DNA of 41,230 bases. It comes from Eubacteriales bacterium OttesenSCG-928-K08. Lineage in GTDB: Bacteria; Bacillota; Clostridia; Christensenellales; CAG-138. This document shows, piece after piece, positions 15,327 to 41,166 of this stretch. Numbering within the stretch: the first letter of the stretch is position 1; the number at the start of each line of letters is the position of its first letter. Under the pieces are notes generated by a model, which was given only the letters and a program-made list of their open reading frames with translations, searched no databases and had not been told where the DNA came from. The position numbers and the translations under genes are program-made. The DNA lies in assembly GCA_030266105.1 (NCBI GenBank), contig JAJDHH010000011.1:1-41230 (forward strand), given 5' to 3'.

Positions 15327-15384
15327 TTAGCGGCAGAGAATGTCCACGACTAAAGAACGTGCTAAAGTAGAAGGTCGATTAACA

Positions 15385-17841
15385 ATGGAAGACAAAAACT
15401 CAGCGATAAAAAACATCGCCCGTTTTGTGGTTGACAAGCGGCGGGCTTTTTACCTGCTGTTTATTATAATGGCGCTGTTTTGTATAAACTCGATTTCGAA
15501 GGTGCAGGTCAATAACGATATCGTTTCCTATCTGCCTAACGATACTGAAACAAAACGTGGCCTGGATATTATGGAAAACGAGTTTATCACCTATGGCAGC
15601 GCGCAGATTATGGTGACAAACATCACATACGCCAGCGCTGACGAAATTAAGGAATACATCGAGCAAACACAAGGTGTTGCCGGTGTTTCATTCGATAACA
15701 CAGAGGCGCACTATAAGGATAGCGCGGCAATTTACACAATTCAATTTAAAGGCGGCACATACGATAAAATTTCCGAAACTGCGATGGCCAACATTAAAGC
15801 TTACCTTTCCGGTTACGACTATTATGTATCCTCTAGCGTCGGGCAGGATTACACAAAAATCCTCAACGAAGAAATGTCTCAGATACTTTTAGTCGCTTCG
15901 CTTGTCATCTTGGCCGTGCTGCTGCTAACATCCCGAAGCTACGCCGAAATTCCCATATTCTTAGTCGTGTTTGTGGTCGCCGCGCTTTTGAACATGGGCA
16001 CAAACTATTGGTTTGATGAAATTTCATTCGTCACAAACTCCATAGCTGTTGTTTTGCAGCTTGCGCTTGCTGTTGACTATTCAATCATCCTTTGCCACAG
16101 GTTTATGGATGAGCTTGAAATCCATGCCCCGCGCGAGGCCGCAATCAACGCGCTTTCAAAGGCTATTGTTGAAATTTCAGCATCGAGCCTCACAACAATC
16201 GCAGGTTTAATGGCGCTCACGCTTATGCACTTCAGGCTTGGTTTTGACATGGGCATAGTGCTGACAAAGGGCATCGTGTGCAGCATGATAACCGTGTTTT
16301 TGCTCATGCCCGGGCTGCTGATGCTTTTTAGCAAGGCAATCATCAAAACCCGCCACCGCAGCTTTGTGCCCCGCATAACGGCATGGGGCAAGCTAATCGT
16401 TAAGCTGCGCTATGTTTTGCCTGCGCTTTTTGTTGTGGTTGTGGGTTTTGCAATCGTATTTTCCGGCAAAAGCGACTTCGTTTTTTCGGATGAAAACATA
16501 GACACTGCCAACCCTTCAATCAGCCGCATAGCGTCAGATAAAATCGAAGGTACATTTGGCAAAAGCAACACCATAGCAGTGCTTGTGCCCACCGAGCGTT
16601 ATGAGGATCAGCGCCGGTTAATCGAAGAAGTGGAGGCGCTTGATTGCGTTAAATCCGCAATGGGGCTTGCCAACATTAAAATCGATGATCAGCACATGCT
16701 CGCAGATAGGCTAACGCCCCGCCAGTTTGCTGAGCTTGCCGACATTGAAATCGAAATGTCGCGCCTGCTGTTTCAGGCATATGGCATAAGCGTGGAGGAA
16801 TACACCCCCATATTCCAAAACGTGGATGAATACACCGTGCCGCTTATCGAAATTTTCCCGTTTTTGTGCGCACAAAAGGATGCGGGTGTGATTAGCCTTA
16901 ACGAGGAACAATCCAAAACGATCGATGAGCTGCGCGAAACATTGGAGATGGCCGTTAACCAGCTTGAAAGCGAAAACTGGTCGAGGCTGGTGTTTACTGC
17001 AAATCTTCCTATTGAGGGCCAGCAAACCGATGATTTTCAGGATGAAATACGCCAAATTGCACTAACTTACTTTGATGATGTTATTCTCGTTGGCAATTCA
17101 ACAAGCGCAAGGGATTTAAAAAACTCCTTCCAATCCGACAATCGGCGCATTACTCTTTTGACGATACTGTTTGTGTTGCTCATTTTGCTGTTTACTTTCC
17201 AGTCCGGCGGCCTGCCTGTGCTGCTGGTGATGACCATTCAGGGCAGCATTTGGATCAACTTCTCATTCCCCTACATAACGGGCAATAATCTGTTTTTTAT
17301 AGCCTACCTCATAATCAGCGCAATACAGATGGGCGCAACGATAGACTACGCCATTGTTATTACAAACCGCTACCTTGAGTTAAAGCAAACCATGGATAAA
17401 AAGCTGGCGGTGATCGAAACGCTTAACCAAAGCTTCGCAACCGTTTTTACATCGGGCGCAATGCTCACAAGCGCAGGCTTTATTATCGCAGGCCTTACAA
17501 CTGAGCCCATAATCAGCTCGATTGGCCAGGCATTAGGCCGTGGCACGCTCATTTCAATAATACTGGTTATGACAGTTCTGCCTCAGTTCCTGCTGCTGGG
17601 GGACATCATAATCGAAAAGACATCCTTCAAAATCAAAAGCAACCGCCCGCAACAAAAAGCAAGCGGCACCATGTGGCTCGATGGGCATGTAAAGGGCCAT
17701 GTTTCCGGTTATGTGGATGCTAACATAAAGGGGCTTGTGCGTGGTGAAATTGATGTGCAGCTCGCTCAACAAAACGAAGCGCCTGTTGAGCCGCCAAATA
17801 AAAGCAACGAACAGGAGGGGATAAACCATGAAGCGGAATGA
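15385..17841 (+). CDS. MMPL/RND-family transporter with a C-terminal tetrapeptide-repeat tail
   Basis: An 818-residue membrane protein with twelve predicted helices in two homologous halves, each with a large extracytoplasmic domain (about residues 40-165 and 375-575). Helices 4 and 10 carry the Asp-Tyr pairs D231-Y232 (AVDYS) and D654-Y655 (TIDYA), which in MmpL3 form the proton relay. Proton-driven export is therefore likely, probably of a lipid or other hydrophobic substrate. The cytoplasmic tail contains seven tandem tetrapeptides (17674-17757). The frame is open to an ATG at 15340, but the ATG at 15385 has AGAAGG upstream and gives the usual short N-terminus before helix 1. The stop overlaps the next gene by 14 bases. 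The substrate is unknown. Confidence 0.9.
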   Translation: MEDKNSAIKNIARFVVDKRRAFYLLFIIMALFCINSISKVQVNNDIVSYLPNDTETKRGLDIMENEFITYGSAQIMVTNITYASADEIKEYIEQTQGVAGVSFDNTEAHYKDSAAIYTIQFKGGTYDKISETAMANIKAYLSGYDYYVSSSVGQDYTKILNEEMSQILLVASLVILAVLLLTSRSYAEIPIFLVVFVVAALLNMGTNYWFDEISFVTNSIAVVLQLALAVDYSIILCHRFMDELEIHAPREAAINALSKAIVEISASSLTTIAGLMALTLMHFRLGFDMGIVLTKGIVCSMITVFLLMPGLLMLFSKAIIKTRHRSFVPRITAWGKLIVKLRYVLPALFVVVVGFAIVFSGKSDFVFSDENIDTANPSISRIASDKIEGTFGKSNTIAVLVPTERYEDQRRLIEEVEALDCVKSAMGLANIKIDDQHMLADRLTPRQFAELADIEIEMSRLLFQAYGISVEEYTPIFQNVDEYTVPLIEIFPFLCAQKDAGVISLNEEQSKTIDELRETLEMAVNQLESENWSRLVFTANLPIEGQQTDDFQDEIRQIALTYFDDVILVGNSTSARDLKNSFQSDNRRITLLTILFVLLILLFTFQSGGLPVLLVMTIQGSIWINFSFPYITGNNLFFIAYLIISAIQMGATIDYAIVITNRYLELKQTMDKKLAVIETLNQSFATVFTSGAMLTSAGFIIAGLTTEPIISSIGQALGRGTLISIILVMTVLPQFLLLGDIIIEKTSFKIKSNRPQQKASGTMWLDGHVKGHVSGYVDANIKGLVRGEIDVQLAQQNEAPVEPPNKSNEQEGINHEAE
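17674..17757 (+). repeat. Seven tandem xVxG-type tetrapeptides in the MMPL transporter tail
   Basis: Residues 764-791 of the transporter read WLDG, HVKG, HVSG, YVDA, NIKG, LVRG, EIDV. A branched or large hydrophobic residue is always second, and Gly (once Ala, once Val) fourth. The 12-base units are not DNA repeats, since codons differ, so the pattern is kept at the protein level. It could form a small beta-solenoid or a polymerising strand on the cytoplasmic side. Confidence 0.7.
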
Positions 17842-20800
17842 TCGGTTTTTTACCCTCCTGCTTGTGATGCTGCTGTGCTTAACGCAGGCTTTCCCCGCGC
17901 TTGCGGCCACAACAGAAGCTGTTGAGGATGTTTTGGCTCCCGCAGAGGAAACAAAACCCGCGCTTTATATTTCATCTGCGGATGAGTTTTTGGTATTTGC
18001 CGAAAACTGCACGCTGGATGCTTACAGCGAAGGATTATCTGTTTATCTAACGAGCGATATTGACCTTGGCGCCTTTGAATTTGCCGGTGTGCCATTATTT
18101 TGCGGCAACTTTAACGGGCAGGGTCATAGCATTAAAGGCGTAACACTATCGCAGTTTGGCTCACAGATTGGCCTTTTCCGGCAACTGACGCAGACCGCGG
18201 TTGTTGAGAACCTCACGTTATACGCAAATGTTTCGCCCGAAGGTTCAGGCATCTCCGTAGGCTTAATCGCCGGAACAAACGCGGGCAAAATCGTCAACTG
18301 CACAGCATATGGCACACTTAACGCCACGCAAAACCTTGGCGGCATCGCAGGGTTAAACAGCCAAACCGGCATAATCCGCAACTGCGAAAATCAAGCATCC
18401 ATTACTGGCGAAACATCAGTTGGCGGCATTGTTGGCAAAAACGAAGGCGCTTTATTCGGCAACAAAAACTATGGCGGCATTAACTCCACAAACATGGGCG
18501 CGGGCAGCTTGGGCACGCCAAACAACACCGGCGGCATTGCGGGCTGGTCCTGCGGCAGCATAAACAACTGCATCAACTACGGTGTTGTTGGTTACTCTCA
18601 CGTAGGCTACAACACCGGCGGGATAATCGGACTGCACAGCGGTGTGGCGCGCGGCAATAAAAACCACGGGGAAGTTTACGGCCGAAAGGATATCGGCGGC
18701 ATCGTGGGGCAGTTTGACCCGATGATAAACCTTGAGTACGCGCCCAGCGCGCTCGAAGAGCTTGGCAGTGAGCTTTCAGTTTTGTTTGACGACCTGGACG
18801 CGCTGACAAACGCAACCGGCAACGCCATATCCGGCGCGGTAAATGATTTGATGGATGTAAAACAAGCGTTAAACGGCCTGATAGACACAACCGCCGATGG
18901 CCTAAACGATGAGCTTAGCCACATACACACATCGCTTGATTCAGCGCTTGATCAGCTTGGCTATACTTCGCGCACGATCAACGAACTGGTTAGGGACATT
19001 CGCGCCTATTCCAAGGCCATGCGCGACGCAATGGAGCAAATACGCAACGCGATCGATCTGCTGCGCAAACAGGCCGCGCCGGGAAGTGAGGCAGCAGCAA
19101 GCCTTGATGCGCTGGAACAATCCATAAATGCCGTTGATAGCTCGCTTTTGCAAATGGAAGCCGATGCTAAGGCGCTTGATGAGTTTTCCTCCGACATAAG
19201 CGCAATAAATAAAAGCTCTGATCCGGCGGATATAGATAGTCTTGATACCGCCAAAATGGAGCGCTATGCGCAAAACACCGCAAAACCCGCACAAACAATC
19301 GCCAAGGAGCTTGCACATGCGCAATCCGCTTTAGCAAGCTTGCAGGCTTCCAGCTTCGCTGCTGGCGCGGCGGATGTTATTGAGGCAATCCAACAAATTG
19401 CGGATGCAATAAGCCGCATGGTTATAAGAACAGCAGCGCTTATCCGTTCGCTTCCAACAAGAGTGTCAACAGTCAACAACTCGCTTAGCTCCACCGGCAA
19501 TGTGCTGCGGCAATACATGGATGAAGCAAGCGTGCGCAACAAAAAGGTCACCGCGGAGATTGATGCGCAATTGACGCTGCTTGATGATTTTTTGACAAAC
19601 CTTGGCAACACTGTGCTTGATGCTAACAGCAGCATGGGCCATGCAATGCGCAAGCTGACACGCCAGATGGATAATGTATCCTCCGCACTCACGGGCCTTG
19701 GGAAAGTGCCGGAGCTTACGATTGACGATATATCTATAGAGCAGGCATATTCGCAGACTGACGGGCTGATCGCCGACTGTTTTAATTATGCGCTTATCAA
19801 TGGGGATGTAAATGTTGGTGGTGTAGCAGGCAACATGGGTTATGAGCTTAGCCTTGATCCTGAGCAGGATTGGGATTTAGGCGGAACTTCGCTCACGAGC
19901 GCCACGGCATTCATCCGCGCGACCCTCATCAACTCAAAAAATTATGGTGCGGTTTCTGCAAAAAACGAAAGTGGCGGCGGCATTGTTGGCCGTGAGGATA
20001 TTGGCGCGGTGATCGGCTGCACAAACATTGCGGATGTTGAGGTGCAAGGCGGAAGTTACTGCGGCGGCATCGTGGGTTTATCCCGCTCAACCATACGCGA
20101 AAGTTATGCGCAGGCGACCCTAACTGGCAGCAGCTATGTTGGCGGCATTGCTGGCAAGGCGCAGCACATTTTCGGCTGCTATTCAATGGTGCTGCTTCAG
20201 TGTGAAAACGCTGAAGCCATAGGCTCCATTGCGGGCTTAGCGCTTGGCGATGTTGCTGAAAATTATTTCCCTGAAGAAAGCGCACCCGGAATTGACGGCG
20301 TAAACTATGCGGGCAAGGCGCAGCCGCTAAGCTATGCGGAATTTATAAACACGCCGGATCTGCCCGAATCATTTAGATCCCTGCAAGTACTCTTTATGGT
20401 TGAAGGGCAAACTGTTGAAAGTTTTTCCATTCCATTTGGTGGAGAGCTTGATGATGCCCTAATACCCGAATGCCCTGAAAAAGACGGACAGTATGGCGCA
20501 TGGGCCAAGTTTGATAGAGAAAACATCAAGCGCAGCCAAATTATCGAGGCGGTGTATGCTCCGCTGCTTAAAACGGCATCATCCGGTGGCGCACAGCCCG
20601 AGCTTTTGGCCGAGGGTTTGTTTACTTCGGATGTGAAAATTGAATTGAGCGGCTGGAACGGCGAGGAAAACGACCCGCTTTTGCACAACTACTCCGTTAT
20701 TAAGGGTTACACATTTAAAATATCCGATGGGCATGGCGCTTATAGTTCCCCGGTAACGCTACGCGTGCGAGCGGAGAATATCGAAAAAGACGTGATGGTT

Positions 20801-21037
20801 TTACGCCAAACCACAAGCACTGTTGATGTTGTGGAGGCAAAATTTGATGGAAGTTATCTTGTCTTTGAGATGCCCGAAAACGGCTCATTTTTGATAATGA
20901 CAAAGAAGCCCGCCTGGTGGCTGGATACTATCGCGATTGTCGTTTTCCTGCTGCTGGTTTTGGTGTTTTTCGTTGTGCGCAAAAGGCGCAAAAAACAAAG
21001 CGCCAGCAAATCTGATAATGCTAATATTTCTTTATAA
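17828..21037 (+). CDS. Secreted, membrane-anchored GLUG-repeat protein split by a long helical insert
   Basis: A 1069-residue surface protein. A signal peptide (LLLVMLLCLTQAFPALA) is probably cleaved after residue 26. Residues about 45-300 hold repeated GLUG-type units (GGIAGLN, GGIVGKN, GGIAGWS, GGIIGLH, GGIVGQF), expected to form a beta-helix. Residues 307-627 are almost purely helical and coiled-coil-like, without Gly repeats. GLUG units resume at about 650-840 (GGVAGN, GGIVGRED, GGIVGLS, GGIAGKA). A beta-rich part follows, then a C-terminal membrane helix (about 1032-1053) and a basic tail KRRKK. The ATG overlaps the transporter gene by 14 bases and has AGGAGGGG upstream, so the two are coupled. 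A partnership with the transporter is inference; the exact function is unknown. Confidence 0.88.
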   Translation: MKRNDRFFTLLLVMLLCLTQAFPALAATTEAVEDVLAPAEETKPALYISSADEFLVFAENCTLDAYSEGLSVYLTSDIDLGAFEFAGVPLFCGNFNGQGHSIKGVTLSQFGSQIGLFRQLTQTAVVENLTLYANVSPEGSGISVGLIAGTNAGKIVNCTAYGTLNATQNLGGIAGLNSQTGIIRNCENQASITGETSVGGIVGKNEGALFGNKNYGGINSTNMGAGSLGTPNNTGGIAGWSCGSINNCINYGVVGYSHVGYNTGGIIGLHSGVARGNKNHGEVYGRKDIGGIVGQFDPMINLEYAPSALEELGSELSVLFDDLDALTNATGNAISGAVNDLMDVKQALNGLIDTTADGLNDELSHIHTSLDSALDQLGYTSRTINELVRDIRAYSKAMRDAMEQIRNAIDLLRKQAAPGSEAAASLDALEQSINAVDSSLLQMEADAKALDEFSSDISAINKSSDPADIDSLDTAKMERYAQNTAKPAQTIAKELAHAQSALASLQASSFAAGAADVIEAIQQIADAISRMVIRTAALIRSLPTRVSTVNNSLSSTGNVLRQYMDEASVRNKKVTAEIDAQLTLLDDFLTNLGNTVLDANSSMGHAMRKLTRQMDNVSSALTGLGKVPELTIDDISIEQAYSQTDGLIADCFNYALINGDVNVGGVAGNMGYELSLDPEQDWDLGGTSLTSATAFIRATLINSKNYGAVSAKNESGGGIVGREDIGAVIGCTNIADVEVQGGSYCGGIVGLSRSTIRESYAQATLTGSSYVGGIAGKAQHIFGCYSMVLLQCENAEAIGSIAGLALGDVAENYFPEESAPGIDGVNYAGKAQPLSYAEFINTPDLPESFRSLQVLFMVEGQTVESFSIPFGGELDDALIPECPEKDGQYGAWAKFDRENIKRSQIIEAVYAPLLKTASSGGAQPELLAEGLFTSDVKIELSGWNGEENDPLLHNYSVIKGYTFKISDGHGAYSSPVTLRVRAENIEKDVMVLRQTTSTVDVVEAKFDGSYLVFEMPENGSFLIMTKKPAWWLDTIAIVVFLLLVLVFFVVRKRRKKQSASKSDNANISL

Positions 21038-25772: not shown

Positions 25773-28700
25773 GTGGTTTTTACATTTTCGGCCCCAAGCA
25801 AAGCGATCAGCTCCTGCATAAGGCGGCTAGAAAGGTTCACATGCTTATCCGCCGGGGTCATTCGCTTTTGCCCTGTCGCCAGGTCAAAAAGCACAACGGG
25901 TATGTTGCCCGGGCTCCTCTCCAGCAGCGCAAGTGTTTTTTGGAGCAGCTCGTTTGTGAGCTCACTATATCGCAAATAGAGCGTTATTTTTGCGTTTTCC
26001 AGCGGTATAAGCTCATCCACAAGAATGCTGTTATCTTTATTTTCCTTAAGGTTCAGCTTGCCCGTTACCATAACGGTTCTTGCCGGGAAAAAGTTGCTTC
26101 CCGCCTCCTGCAGCACACGCGGGAACAGCACAATATCCACCACGCCGGTCACTCCCTCAAGCTGAGCGTAACCCACGATCCCCGAGCCCGAGCGGGTTGG
26201 CTTGCGCTCGCAATCGCGCAGCAGCCCCGCCACCTTAACGCGCTCGTTATCCTTTGGCGGCAAAATGCCGTCGGCCTCCTGAATATCGAGCACGGAATAG
26301 GGCAAGGATGATAGTATCTGCTCGTAATCATCCAGCGGGTGACCGCTGACATATACGCCTATTGCCTCGCGTTCCTTATCGAGTATAACCTGTTTCTTTA
26401 ATTCGTCAAGCTCAGGCAGCTGTATGGTCGCCTCCCTCAAGGCTTCCTTGGCGGCTCCGCCTAAATCGAACAGCGAAATCTGCCCCTGCTCGCGCATCCT
26501 TCGCGCACCGGCGGCGCTATCGAGCGCACGCTCGTAAACATTGATGAGCTGCGAGCGCTTATGCCCCATGCTATCAAACGCACCGGCGTAAATCAGGCCT
26601 TCAACCATGCGCTTGTTAATACCCTGCGCTCTATTTATGAAGTCAAAAAAGTCGATGAACTGACCTCCGCTCTCACGCTCCTGCACGATCGAGCGCATCG
26701 CGCCCTCGCCAACATTCCTGACTGCGCACAGCCCAAAACGAATGCCGCCTGCCTCCACGCTAAAACGCGCGCCGCTCTTGTTGACATCGGGCGGGAGCAC
26801 GGGCACGCCCAAACGCCTTGCTGCATAAACATAAGCCGCCACAGCATCCACACTGCCAATGTAGCTGTTTATGAGCGCGGCCATAAACTCTTTTTTATAG
26901 TAAAGCTTTAAATGCGCCGTTCGATAAGCCACAACAGCGTAGCATGCCGCGTGCGATTTGTTAAACGCATAGGACGCAAAATCCATCATTTCATCAAAAA
27001 TCTGGTTGGCGATCTTTGCGGGCACACCGTTTTTAACAGCGCCGGGGACATTATCCTCCTCAATGCCATAAATAAAGTTCTGGCGCTCTTTTGCCATCAC
27101 ATCATGCTTTTTTTTGCTCATCGCGCGGCGCACAAGGTCGCTTCGCCCCATAGAATAGCCGCCGATATCGCGCACGATTTGCATCACCTGCTCCTGATAC
27201 ACCATGCAGCCATATGTTGCTGATAGTATCGGCCTGAGCTTTTCATGCGCATATTGCGCCTCGCCTGTGCCGTGCTTTGCTGCAACATAGCGCGGGATGG
27301 AGGCCATCGGCCCCGGGCGGAAAAGCGAGATGCCCGCGATGATATCCTCAAAGCTGTCGGGCTTTAGCTGCATCATAAAATTGCGCATGCCCGCGCTTTC
27401 AAGCTGGAACACTCCATCGGTATCCCCGGCGGCTATCATGGCGAACACCTTTGGGTCGTCATACTCCATGGTGTTGATTGGCGGCACTTCTTTGCCGCTT
27501 TCGCGGATAAATTCCAGCGTGTCGCGTATGACTGTGAGCGTGCGCAGGCCAAGAAAATCCATTTTAAGAAGGCCCAGTTCTTCGAGCGTACCCATTGGGA
27601 ACTGCGTAGTGACGGATTCGTCGTTCTTCTGTAATGGAACAACCTCCATTACCGGCAGGCGTGAAATCACCACGCCGGCCGCGTGAGTGGAAGCATGCCT
27701 TGGCTGGCCTTCTAACTTTTTGCAAAAGTCGATGAGCTTCTTAACATCCGGCTCCGTATCATAACGCGCCTTAAGCTCAGGCGAGAGCATCAGCGCGCGA
27801 TCAAGCGTCATGTTAAGCTCAAACGGAACCAGCTTGGCGATTTTATCCACATCGCCATAAGGCATGTGAAGCGCACGCCCCACATCCCGCACAGCGCCTC
27901 TTGCGGCCATCGTGCCAAATGTGATTATCTGCGCGACATGATCCGCGCCGTATTTTCTAACAACATAGTCGATAACTTCCTGCCTGCGTTCATAACAAAA
28001 GTCGATGTCGAAGTCAGGCATCGAAATGCGCTCAGGGTTCAGGAAGCGCTCAAAAAGCAGGCCGTATTTAAGCGGATCCACATCTGTAATATCGAGGCTA
28101 TAGGCCACAAGGCTCCCCGCGCCGCTGCCCCTCCCGGGGCCAACGATTATATCGCTGCGCTTTGCAAAATCGATAAAATCCCAAACGATGAGAAAATAGT
28201 CCACAAAACCCATCGTCTCTATAACATTAAGCTCGTATTCAAGCCGCTCGCGTTCGGTTTGGCCAGCCAGCGGCATTTTCTTTTCAAGCCCGCTTAGGGT
28301 AAGCTGCCTGAGGTAGCTTGCATTATCCTGGCCGCCGGGGGCTGTGAAGCCCGGCAGGTGCCGCTCGCCAAAGGCTATTTCAAGCTCGCATTTGTCGGCG
28401 ACTTCCTGCGTATTGTCGATCGCCTGCAAGTAGGCAGGCAGCGCATTTCGCATCTCCTGCTCGGTTTTAAGGTAAAACTCGTCAGAATCCATGCGCATGC
28501 GCACAGGTTCATCCACAAATGTGTTTGTTTGTATGCACAGCAGCACATCCTGAACGGCAGCGTCCTCTTTGTTGACATAGTGAACATCGTTTGTTGCAAC
28601 AAGCTTTACCCCAATTTCGTTTGCGATGCGCGCTAACCCAGGCAGCACACGCTTTTGATCCTCAAGCCCGTGATCCTGCAGCTCGATGTAAAAATCCTCG

Positions 28701-38128: not shown

Positions 38129-38753
38129 AAGAATCCATTCCTCCTAATAGTAAGCTAACCAAATCTTCCCTTCTTGATACACGGCTCTTCTCAGCGTGCA
38201 TGATTGCAGTTATGCCCTCAAGCGCAGACTCCACCGTGTCGTTTATCACAACATAATCATATAGCGAAATGCACTGCATCTCCTGGTAGGCCGCCTGTGT
38301 GCGCCTTACAATGGCCTCCTCGCTTTCTGTTCCCCGGCCAACAAGGCGGCGCTTTAGCTCATCCATACTGGGGGGAGCAACAAATATGAGCACAGCACCC
38401 TCATAAACCTCTTTAACCTGCAGGCCGCCCTGCACATCAATTTCCAAAATGACATCCTTGCCCTGTTCGAGTTGCTCGAATACGTATTTTTTAGGCGTAC
38501 CGTAAGAATATTCACTAAACACACGGGTGTATTCGAGGAACTCGCCCCTATGCGCCATCTGCGAAAACTGCGCCTCGTTAACAAAAAAATAGCTTTTGCC
38601 CTCAACCTCGTTTGGGCGCTTTTTGCGTGTGGTGGCGGAAACCGAATAGGTCGCGTTATCATCCTGAGCAAGCAAGCCTGCGCACACGGTTCCTTTGCCC
38701 ACACCCGACGGGCCGGATAAAACAATCAACAACCCCGGCTTTTTATCCTGCAT
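38106..38753 (-). CDS. gmk: Guanylate kinase
   Basis: A 215-residue enzyme that phosphorylates GMP to GDP with ATP. The P-loop is GPSGVGKGT (14-22). The GMP-binding part shows SVSATTRKKRPNEVEGKSYFF and SYGTPKKYV, and DVILEIDVQGGLQVKEVY is the Walker B region. The length is normal. GGGGG lies 6 nt before the ATG. It follows remA by 31 bases and overlaps rpoZ at its 3' end. Confidence 0.97.
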   Translation of the reverse strand: MQDKKPGLLIVLSGPSGVGKGTVCAGLLAQDDNATYSVSATTRKKRPNEVEGKSYFFVNEAQFSQMAHRGEFLEYTRVFSEYSYGTPKKYVFEQLEQGKDVILEIDVQGGLQVKEVYEGAVLIFVAPPSMDELKRRLVGRGTESEEAIVRRTQAAYQEMQCISLYDYVVINDTVESALEGITAIMHAEKSRVSRREDLVSLLLGGMDSYDELSWR

Positions 38754-38784
38754 AGTTAACCCCCATGTAAAATAAAGCTTCGTT

Positions 38785-39039
38785 TTATTCCGCGTTTTCG
38801 CTTGAGCTCACGCGGTTGGCAATCGTTTCAGGCTGCACTGCGCACAGCACGATATGCCCGCTATCCATCACAATTACGGCGCGGGTGCGGCGGCCATATG
38901 TTGCATCCACCAGCATGCCCTTTTCGCGCGCTTCCTGAATAATGCGCTTAACAGGCGCACTATCCGGCCCGATTATGGCAAGCACCCTGTTTGCGCAAAC
39001 GATGTTGCCAAAGCCTATGTTAACAAGCTTAATGCTCAT
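38785..39039 (-). CDS. remA: RemA-family extracellular matrix regulator (DUF370)
   Basis: An 84-residue DNA-binding protein. The [22 protein letters not shown] start, the central [11 protein letters not shown] and the [16 protein letters not shown] block closely match RemA. In B. subtilis it activates biofilm matrix and osmoprotection genes and forms large rings that wrap DNA. It sits between yicC and gmk, exactly as in Bacillus and Clostridia. The ribosome binding site is weak. The last dozen residues are acidic and polar and vary within the family. Confidence 0.95.
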
Positions 39040-39048
39040 GCTTCACAC

Positions 39049-39927
39049 TCACTCGATGTTTTGTACCTGCTCGCGGATTTTTTCCACCTCGCCCTTGCCT
39101 AAAAGCACGGCGTTAACAAGCTCGGTGTCGTTTGCCTTGGAGCCGATCGTGTTAAACTCGCGGTTTAGCTCCTGCACAATAAAATCCAGCTTTCGGCCGG
39201 AGGGTTCTTTTGACAAAAAAGTGTTTTTCATTTGCGTAACATGGCTGTTAAGGCGGGTGATTTCCTCATCCACGCTCGCTTTATCCGCAAACAAAGCAAC
39301 CTCCGTTGCAAGGCGCGAGCGATCCACCTCAACCTCCTGCAAAACAAAAGCAATGCGTTCGTTTAGCTTCGCGCGGTATTCTTCCACGACCAATGGCGCG
39401 CGTTCCGCTATGCGCACGCCCAAATCGCAAATGACCTGCACACGGGCTTCCAAATCCTTAAGCAGGCGCTCGCCCTCAGCCTCACGCATTGTGATTAGCT
39501 CTTTAAGCGCCGCTTCCATTGCATTTTGGGCAAGCAGGAGCACCTCATCGCGATCCTCCTCAGCCTCAATCACGCTCACCGCATCCGGCAAGCGCAAAAC
39601 ATTTGCAGCGTTCAAGCGGCCATCCACATCGTAGCGGCCGGCGATTTCTTTTGCAGCGGTTATATATTGTGAAACAATCGCTTCATCGACCAATATTGAT
39701 TTTGAGTCGTTACGGGTGTTTCGATAGTTGATGTATACATCAACATGCCCACGGCTTATGGAGCCTGCGATTTGCCTTCTGAGTGTATCCTCCAAAAAAA
39801 CAAGGTGGCGTGGCAGGCGCAATGAAATATCCAAATAGCGGTGATTGACGGATTTTAACTCCACCGTAATTTCCCGGCCCTCACGCCCCGCAAAACCTCG
39901 CCCATAACCAGTCATGCTGCTGATCAA
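39049..39927 (-). CDS. yicC: YicC/YloC-family endoribonuclease
   Basis: A 292-residue protein of the YicC/YloC family, reported as RNA endonucleases. The N-terminus MISSMTGYGRG, KSVNHRYLDISLRLPR and the C-terminal GRKLDFIVQELNREFNTIGSKANDTEL are diagnostic. The start is TTG at 39925-39927 with GGAGG 8 nt upstream; the ATG four codons later would leave a 20-nt spacing. It is the first gene of the yicC-remA-gmk-rpoZ-coaBC-priA operon and has its own promoter (40013-40041). Confidence 0.93.
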   Translation of the reverse strand: MISSMTGYGRGFAGREGREITVELKSVNHRYLDISLRLPRHLVFLEDTLRRQIAGSISRGHVDVYINYRNTRNDSKSILVDEAIVSQYITAAKEIAGRYDVDGRLNAANVLRLPDAVSVIEAEEDRDEVLLLAQNAMEAALKELITMREAEGERLLKDLEARVQVICDLGVRIAERAPLVVEEYRAKLNERIAFVLQEVEVDRSRLATEVALFADKASVDEEITRLNSHVTQMKNTFLSKEPSGRKLDFIVQELNREFNTIGSKANDTELVNAVLLGKGEVEKIREQVQNIE

Positions 39928-40012
39928 ACGCGTTTCCTCCTAAAAAGCCTCACTGTTTTATGAAGCCACTTTCTTAACAAAAGTCACACATGGTGGAATT
40001 CCCACAAACTTC

Positions 40013-40041
40013 AGTATATCATCCATGGCAGGCTTTGTCGA
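40013..40041 (-). promoter_or_regulatory. Predicted sigma-A promoter for the yicC-remA-gmk operon
   Basis: On the minus strand TCGACA (40041-40036) and TATACT (40018-40013) are separated by 17 bases, each one mismatch from consensus. The start site would be about 80 bases before the yicC start. The leader contains a short palindrome around GGGAATTCC. Confidence 0.65.
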
Positions 40042-40132
40042 TTGCCGCCGCCAATTTATTCGATATTTTGTGGTTTTCGCCACTCTTGCGCTATTAAACG
40101 GTAGCACAAAAGGAACCTCACAGGCTTATCTT

Positions 40133-40141
40133 ATTATACCA
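40133..40141 (-). promoter_or_regulatory. Second, extended -10 promoter upstream of yicC
   Basis: On the minus strand TGGTATAAT (40141-40133) is a perfect -10 with TGn extension; the -35 region 17 bases upstream (GTTTCA) is weak. It lies in the 288-base gap between the HypE-like gene and yicC. That gap otherwise holds the promoter at 40013-40041 and no gene I can support. Confidence 0.45.
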
Positions 40142-40215
40142 ACAAAAAGCGAGTTTGAAACAGTTAAACCGATCTTTTCTTCACAATTTGTTCATAACTT
40201 CGAATTCAATCATTT

Positions 40216-41166
40216 TTAAAACAGCCGGTAAAGCTCATCCGCTTCAGGCGGAGTAACTTCTTTGCCATTTAAGCGCAATGTTTTTCCGCCCGCTTTGCCA
40301 ATAACCGCCGCTGCTATGTTCAGCGCTTTAAGCCCCTTTGTCATAGCCTCACCATCTTCACAGGCGATAAGCATACAGCCGCTCGATAAAAGCCTGAGCG
40401 GATCAAGGCCAAGCTCAGCACACAGATCAACAGTAATTGGGTGCACGGGGATTTCGTTTAGCTCCATGCCCACGCCCGTGGTGTGGCACATTTCCCATGC
40501 TGCGCCCAACACGCCGCCCTCAGTTACATCGTGCATGGCCGTTGCCCCATGGCGCGCGGCATAGCGCCCCTCAGGCACAACGCTAAGGTGCTTTATCCAG
40601 CTTGCAAGCTCCTTAAATTCCTGTGCGTTTAATATTTTAAGGCGTTCCTTAAAATCGGCGGCAATTAGCATGCTGCCCTCAAGCCCTGCCCATTTGGTGA
40701 GCACAATGTCGTTGCCGGGCTGCATGCCTAAAAGCCGATTTTCTGCAGGCATGCGCGCGACCACCGTCGTGTTGGTGATAAAGCGGGTTACGCTATCCGT
40801 CACCTCGGTGTGGCCGCCAAGTATATCCACGCCCACCTCATGCGCGGCGTCGGATAGTTCCTGAGCGATACTTTCAATCTCTTGCTCTGTTGCATCAGGC
40901 GGGGCAAGCAATGTCACCATCAGTCCCACCGGTTCAGCGCCCGCGGCGGCAGCATCGTTGCAGTTGACATGCACGCTTAACCTGCCCAGGTGATTTGTTG
41001 CCGCCGTAACAGGGTCTGTGGATAGTATTGTCAAATCCCCACCGAGGTTTAGCGCGGCGCAATCCTCACCCACCTGGGGCGTACCCAGCGATTCCTCGCG
41101 TGTTTTTGAGTATTTGCTGAGCACAAGCCTTTCAAGCTGCTCGTTGTTTAGCTTACCTAAGCGCAT
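40216..41166 (-). CDS. HypE-like AIR-synthase family protein
   Basis: A 316-residue protein of the PurM/HypE/SelD/ThiL superfamily, which bind ATP and form phosphate-activated intermediates. Typical parts are VGEDCAALNLG, STDPVTAATNHLGRLSVHVNCNDAAAAGAEPVG, ILGGHTEVTDSV and MHDVTEGGVLGAAWEM. These resemble HypE most. However, true HypE ends with a conserved C-terminal cysteine that carries the carbamoyl/cyano group; this protein ends in ELYRLF with no cysteine. No other hydrogenase-maturation gene is visible. I therefore leave it unnamed; its substrate is unknown. GGGGG lies 5 nt before the ATG. Confidence 0.8.
   Translation of the reverse strand: MRLGKLNNEQLERLVLSKYSKTREESLGTPQVGEDCAALNLGGDLTILSTDPVTAATNHLGRLSVHVNCNDAAAAGAEPVGLMVTLLAPPDATEQEIESIAQELSDAAHEVGVDILGGHTEVTDSVTRFITNTTVVARMPAENRLLGMQPGNDIVLTKWAGLEGSMLIAADFKERLKILNAQEFKELASWIKHLSVVPEGRYAARHGATAMHDVTEGGVLGAAWEMCHTTGVGMELNEIPVHPITVDLCAELGLDPLRLLSSGCMLIACEDGEAMTKGLKALNIAAAVIGKAGGKTLRLNGKEVTPPEADELYRLF

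Follow-up and report, generated by a model that had tools for sequence, protein, structure and literature searches.

In the stretch of DNA analysed here (the window, 41,230 nucleotides from Eubacteriales bacterium OttesenSCG-928-K08), an MMPL/RND transporter gene and the gene of a predicted secreted, membrane-anchored GLUG beta-solenoid protein form a module whose two products are, with high confidence, functionally paired. Their status as one module, which an earlier note had proposed from the sequence, is strongly supported by co-occurrence across genomes and by gene fusions. Since the two genes hardly ever occur apart, their products probably constitute one export machine.

The transporter gene is located at 15385–17841 of the plus strand and encodes 818 aa (Pfam PF03176, E 2.5e-40), with homologues starting near 15385, and an alternative in-frame ATG upstream (at 15340) would yield 833 aa. 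The partner gene (17828–21037, plus strand; 1069 aa), which has full-length homologues at 24–31% identity, overlaps it by 14 bases (17828–17841), and its ribosome-binding site (AGGAGG, 17813–17818, plus strand) is situated inside the MMPL frame, 9 nt upstream of the partner ATG. Both the overlap and this internal site had been read correctly from the outset. All other domain-bearing genes scanned via Pfam in the window lie on the minus strand (including those for a Mur ligase, a penicillin-binding protein, Lon, UvrC, DNA polymerase III alpha and PriA), and the description of the pair as the sole plus-strand module holds among these genes; a plus-strand ORF at 38942 carries no domain and overlaps yicC. 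A search for a sigma-70-type promoter upstream of the MMPL gene found none. A foreign origin of the module DNA was considered, for which the difference in G+C (0.46 to 0.51 vs. about 0.50 to 0.54 in the surroundings) is not decisive.

The MMPL product matches PF03176 with 138.9 bits (cut-off of 20.5) and stays under the NCBIfam cut-offs of HAE3 (TIGR00921; 134 vs. 351.9 bits), actII (TIGR00833; 118.4 vs. 874.7 bits), HpnN (TIGR03480; 62.5 vs. 751.85 bits) and MmpL3 (30 vs. 1400 bits). Both Asp-Tyr proton-relay pairs, i.e., D231-Y232 (16075–16080) and D654-Y655 (17344–17349; plus strand and 818-aa numbering for both), are kept, as had been noted before, and are invariant in an alignment of six homologues. 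The pump fold was taken from the AlphaFold model of a fused homologue (L065, see below) rather than of the window protein; 49 natural sequences were used, and the model comprises the pump, the signal segment and the first solenoid part. Its pump aligned with MSMEG_3496 of the MmpL family over 663 residues (Z 42.9, rmsd 4.6) and with MmpL5 at Z 42.7, the nearest folds being MmpL5 and MmpL4 (Z about 43, rmsd about 5), which were also the best PDB sequence matches of the pump. In the second periplasmic part of this model (about 361–563), helices do not exceed about 21 residues. As modelled, the pump has the duplicated transmembrane-porter fold of MMPL/RND transporters and is MmpL4/5-like, minus the long coiled-coil insert.

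Towards its C-terminus, the MMPL protein carries a G.V.G.V-repeat motif (SGTMWLDGHVKGHVSGYVDANIKGLVRGEIDVQL; 17662–17763, plus strand) that is probably cytosolic and occurs in 47 of 78 homologues, shorter homologues lacking it. This motif of ~35 residues resembles one or two bactofilin-like solenoid turns. Pfam returned no family above its cut-off for the motif, and its assignment as a bactofilin was rejected (the best weak match, to Bactofilin, had an E of 0.15 and concerned one homologue's motif).

The co-occurrence of pump and partner was examined in a class sample (341 genomes) and a phylum sample (398 genomes), both evenly drawn and seeded with the window protein alone. The MMPL subfamily was present in 36 of the 341 class-sample genomes and is sharply bounded, since even its weakest match had an E of 5e-178. 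Significant partner matches were obtained in 32 genomes, each of which also carried the MMPL gene, and none of the 341 genomes had such a match without it. In all 31 matched genomes besides that of the window, the partner adjoins the MMPL gene on the same strand, and direct reading of the remaining four MMPL-bearing genomes revealed the partner beside the MMPL gene in these as well (36/36). Fisher's test on the automatic rows yielded a p-value of about 6e-40, with related genomes treated as independent. The phylum sample contained the MMPL gene in six of 398 genomes and the partner beside it in all six (two of which, the window's genome and G128, are shared with the class sample). Chance adjacency of the two genes is ruled out by these samples.

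A further scan of named genomes (80 loci), seeded from a six-sequence alignment in which four members had the partner, revealed the pair in 76 loci, two of them fused, with the partner directly downstream in most and overlapping or nearly so. The four loci without the pair comprise two on contigs ending just after the MMPL gene and two that are partnerless, i.e., 76 of 78 testable loci carry the pair. The cross-genome survey that the earlier note had called for thus came out clearly in its favour, and pump and partner are regarded as one module because of this co-occurrence (36/36, 6/6 and 76/78) together with the gene fusions. Within the 103 genomes of the window's family, a close MMPL was present in six, with a full-length partner directly downstream in four and none in G016 and G018, to which the two partnerless loci (L089 and L092) appear to correspond. 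A partner elsewhere in these two incomplete assemblies is excluded only at an E of 1e-10. Because the MMPL gene is kept there without an adjacent partner, the pump may work alone in this clade. The control was a set of 11 genomes from the window's family whose only MMPL belongs to another type of roughly 700 aa; none had a full-length partner. The distance matrices of pump and partner correlated with an r of 0.79 (permutation maximum of 0.24), which co-inheritance alone would also give.

Some individual loci deviate in their organisation. G408 carries two MMPL genes of the subfamily (on contigs C82 and C83), with a partner match by similarity at C82 alone. One MAG has an apparently identical pair with identical neighbours on two contigs (L106 and L107), reflecting either duplication or assembly redundancy, and at L052, L102 and L105 the partner is split across two ORFs by a frameshift or an assembly error.

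The fused loci, L049 (from a Roseburia MAG) and L065, encode pump and partner as single ORFs of 1806 and 1921 residues, respectively, and the fused form is also found in two further genomes of L065's genus (three genomes in total). The junctions differ: in L049, the C-terminal motif of the pump precedes the former signal peptide, while this motif is absent in L065. With one common junction in three genomes of one genus and the other junction in Roseburia, an assembly artefact is unlikely. The order within the fused ORFs (pump, cytosolic end, hydrophobic segment, solenoid) gives a consistent topology. In a tree built with a quick method, the fusions fall in two lineages, support values not formally excluding a single fusion origin, and the partnerless genomes form one nested clade, so that a single loss of the partner suffices.

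The partner, all of whose features lie on the plus strand, starts with a predicted signal peptide (residues 1–27; 17828–17908; ALA-A site, model helix at 3–20) and ends with a predicted C-terminal membrane helix and basic tail (residues 1030–1057; 20915–20998; from hydrophobicity and the model). Its only hydrophobic segments are residues 7–25 and 1032–1050, the second with the basic tail, in agreement with the signal peptide and membrane anchor described before. A C-terminal hydrophobic helix is present in the last 90 aa of 60 of the 66 complete homologues and further upstream in at least two of the remaining six. In the model, these ends enclose a first beta-solenoid part (residues 44–304; 17957–18739; pLDDT mostly >90), a helical region (residues 306–623; 18743–19696), a second beta-solenoid part (residues 631–830; 19718–20317) and a membrane-proximal beta-domain (residues 852–1026; 20381–20905; pLDDT of about 71–87).

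Foldseek alone gave zero matches for the partner at an E of 0.001. With VIA-align, the solenoid matched an IgA1-protease GLUG helix (7uvk; Z 26.2 over 255 residues, model range 45–708) and aligned with AlgE4 and AlgE-type epimerases over model residues 73–818, the two solenoid parts being continuous in the AlgE4 alignment. The beta-repeat body has the GLUG beta-helix fold, and homologues pass the cut-off of GLUG PF07581 (21.1 to 54.6 bits), although the window protein's own Pfam match remains below it (16.4 vs. 20.5 bits). Because the solenoid alignment continues across the helical region, the latter forms an insertion, a loop within the solenoid, and not, as first supposed, a stalk between body and anchor. 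The partner model thus shows a single GLUG beta-solenoid carrying a helical loop of roughly 320 residues; the beta-domain and the membrane helix at the C-terminus come after the solenoid.

The helical region has a hydrophobicity period of 3.56 residues in the window protein, with a signal stronger than that of any of 200 shuffles, and most of 54 homologues have periods of 3.5 to 3.6. It was modelled as several ~50-residue helices (pLDDT of 43–63) rather than a single long hairpin, and in those homologues where a pattern could delimit it (49 sequences), its length varies between 156 and 858 residues. Likenesses of the region to ClyA, McpS and designed bundles (Z 10 to 12) were discarded, as helical models reach this range without kinship, and sequence matches to SMC, myosin and tape-measure proteins were attributed to coiled-coil composition. 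Pfam revealed no M26 or other peptidase family in the partner among matches to an E of 0.1, no match to the lipoyl and barrel domains of HlyD/MFP adaptors, and no MmpS domain among its matches at the locus; an NCBIfam HlyD match of 10.9 bits (cut-off of 208.65) was confined to the coil.

Our preferred reading, to which we assign a probability of roughly 0.55, is that of a proton-driven exporter of amphipathic or lipid cargo, in which the partner is a dedicated extracytoplasmic subunit giving an MmpL4/5-type helical extension in trans. The MMPL protein is the energised membrane pump, as its family, fold and both Asp-Tyr pairs show. A role of the partner as its dedicated extracytoplasmic subunit is strongly supported by the near-invariant linkage and the fusions; the partner would be exported by its signal peptide and held by its C-terminal membrane helix, with the long helical loop projecting from one turn of its solenoid. 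The partner might dock onto the porter domains of the pump, and its loop, perhaps as an oligomer, might supply in trans what MmpL4/5 carry as an inserted coiled-coil domain. Cargo would then leave the membrane and move into or through the thick wall, and the solenoid could bind wall glycan or the cargo itself. Amphipathic molecules or lipids are suggested as cargo by the pump family, which, besides a neighbouring TetR gene (see below), was the only indication of the cargo obtained. The variation in loop length fits a variable spacer equally well as a conduit. A bolder version, in which single-membrane Clostridia would possess a wall-crossing RND exporter with a helical conduit provided in trans by the solenoid partner, and thereby a Gram-positive equivalent of what adaptor and tube are in tripartite pumps, is put forward only tentatively.

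An interface between pump and partner, as anticipated in the earlier note, was not predicted: the L065 fragment, cut after the first solenoid segment, showed no confident docking. Both of its domains fold well (pLDDT of 87), and with a disordered linker (pLDDT under 40) and a pTM of 0.66 the model is silent on how pump and solenoid are placed. The missing interface in this fragment, together with the loss of the partner in one clade, would suit two proteins that are merely neighbours by shared descent and act separately. This is nevertheless very improbable, since the pairing is found in every MMPL-bearing genome of the class and phylum samples despite changing flanking genes, and pump and partner have been fused in two lineages.

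The relation between the two proteins could also be the reverse, with the partner being the working surface protein (an adhesin or glycan-binding scaffold) and the pump serving it by moving a lipid or glycolipid by which the partner is anchored or modified or which the partner displays. We consider this unlikely, albeit the strongest of the alternatives. It would agree with the closest folds of the GLUG solenoid, i.e., the beta-helices of IgA1 proteases and of proteins acting on polysaccharides (Z 26 to 15), with a loop length that is highly variable, as in surface proteins, and with the faster divergence of the partner (median identity among homologues of 30%, vs. 46% for the pump). However, with a signal peptide and a membrane helix of its own, the partner does not need the MMPL protein for its export, and where it is fused to the pump it stays at the membrane. 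Less probable still is a sensor module, in which the partner would sense an extracellular ligand and gate the MMPL protein in the manner of helical receptor ectodomains. This role would suit a protein that combines a long helical bundle with just one membrane helix, and the helices show a weak fold similarity to the McpS ligand-binding domain (Z 12, a range where helical matches mean little), but the cytosolic side has no signalling domain (the tail of the window protein counts about 12 residues) and a sensor is already offered by a TetR regulator.

This regulator, of the TetR_C_8 type and about 199 residues long, accompanies the pair in 30 of the 80 loci (upstream in 28, mostly divergent) and is absent next to the pair in the window. 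It is the sole often-recurring neighbour, flanking genes otherwise changing, and no conserved cargo genes were found near the pair in the 80 loci. In Staphylococcus aureus, a divergent TetR/RND pair, FarR-FarE, confers fatty-acid resistance (PMC10019231). By analogy, the TetR neighbour points to an expression that responds to a small molecule, and the shared layout, in which a TetR-type gene diverges from the gene of a Gram-positive MMPL/RND pump, is taken as a lead on the cargo, nothing beyond. The passages of that source consulted describe no GLUG partner of FarE, and the window in turn lacks the adjacent TetR gene.

The closest known systems are MmpS4-MmpL4 and MmpS5-MmpL5 of mycobacteria, which likewise combine an RND/MMPL pump with an operon partner and provide the nearest solved fold and PDB sequences. 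In these systems too, a helical part reaches beyond the membrane (PMC12501195, PMC12803245), and the coiled coil of MmpL5 is required for efflux (PMC12501195). In mycobacteria, however, this extension is located inside the pump and the partner is a small MmpS, whereas in Clostridia, which lack a mycomembrane, it is found on the partner, a 1069-aa C-terminally anchored solenoid. The M26 IgA1 proteases share the GLUG beta-helix (Z 25–26, 255 aligned residues, rmsd 2.4–2.7) but not the remainder, as the partner has no M26 peptidase domain and adds a helical loop, a C-terminal anchor and linkage to an MMPL pump. Each of the components (MMPL pumps, operon partners, GLUG solenoids) is already known, and what appears new is their combination as pump and partner: no description of an MMPL-GLUG pairing was found in the literature searched, whose limited coverage leaves absence unproven. 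The pair is spread over Lachnospiraceae, Oscillospiraceae and other gut and rumen Clostridia, and gives unannotated GLUG surface proteins a transport context. Gram-positive RND pumps are little understood, and the pair bears on the open question of how cargo passes the thick wall; being near-invariant, it offers a defined two-protein system for purification, imaging and deletion.

Finally, contig C79 of the window's own genome carries a roughly 700-aa MMPL gene of another type without the partner (38413–40452, minus strand) and, 10 kb from it on the opposite strand (28163–28690, plus strand), the gene of a separate GLUG protein, about 400 aa long, whose N-terminus resembles a zinc ribbon (loci L001 and L006). 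These two were rejected as a second pair of the system described here.
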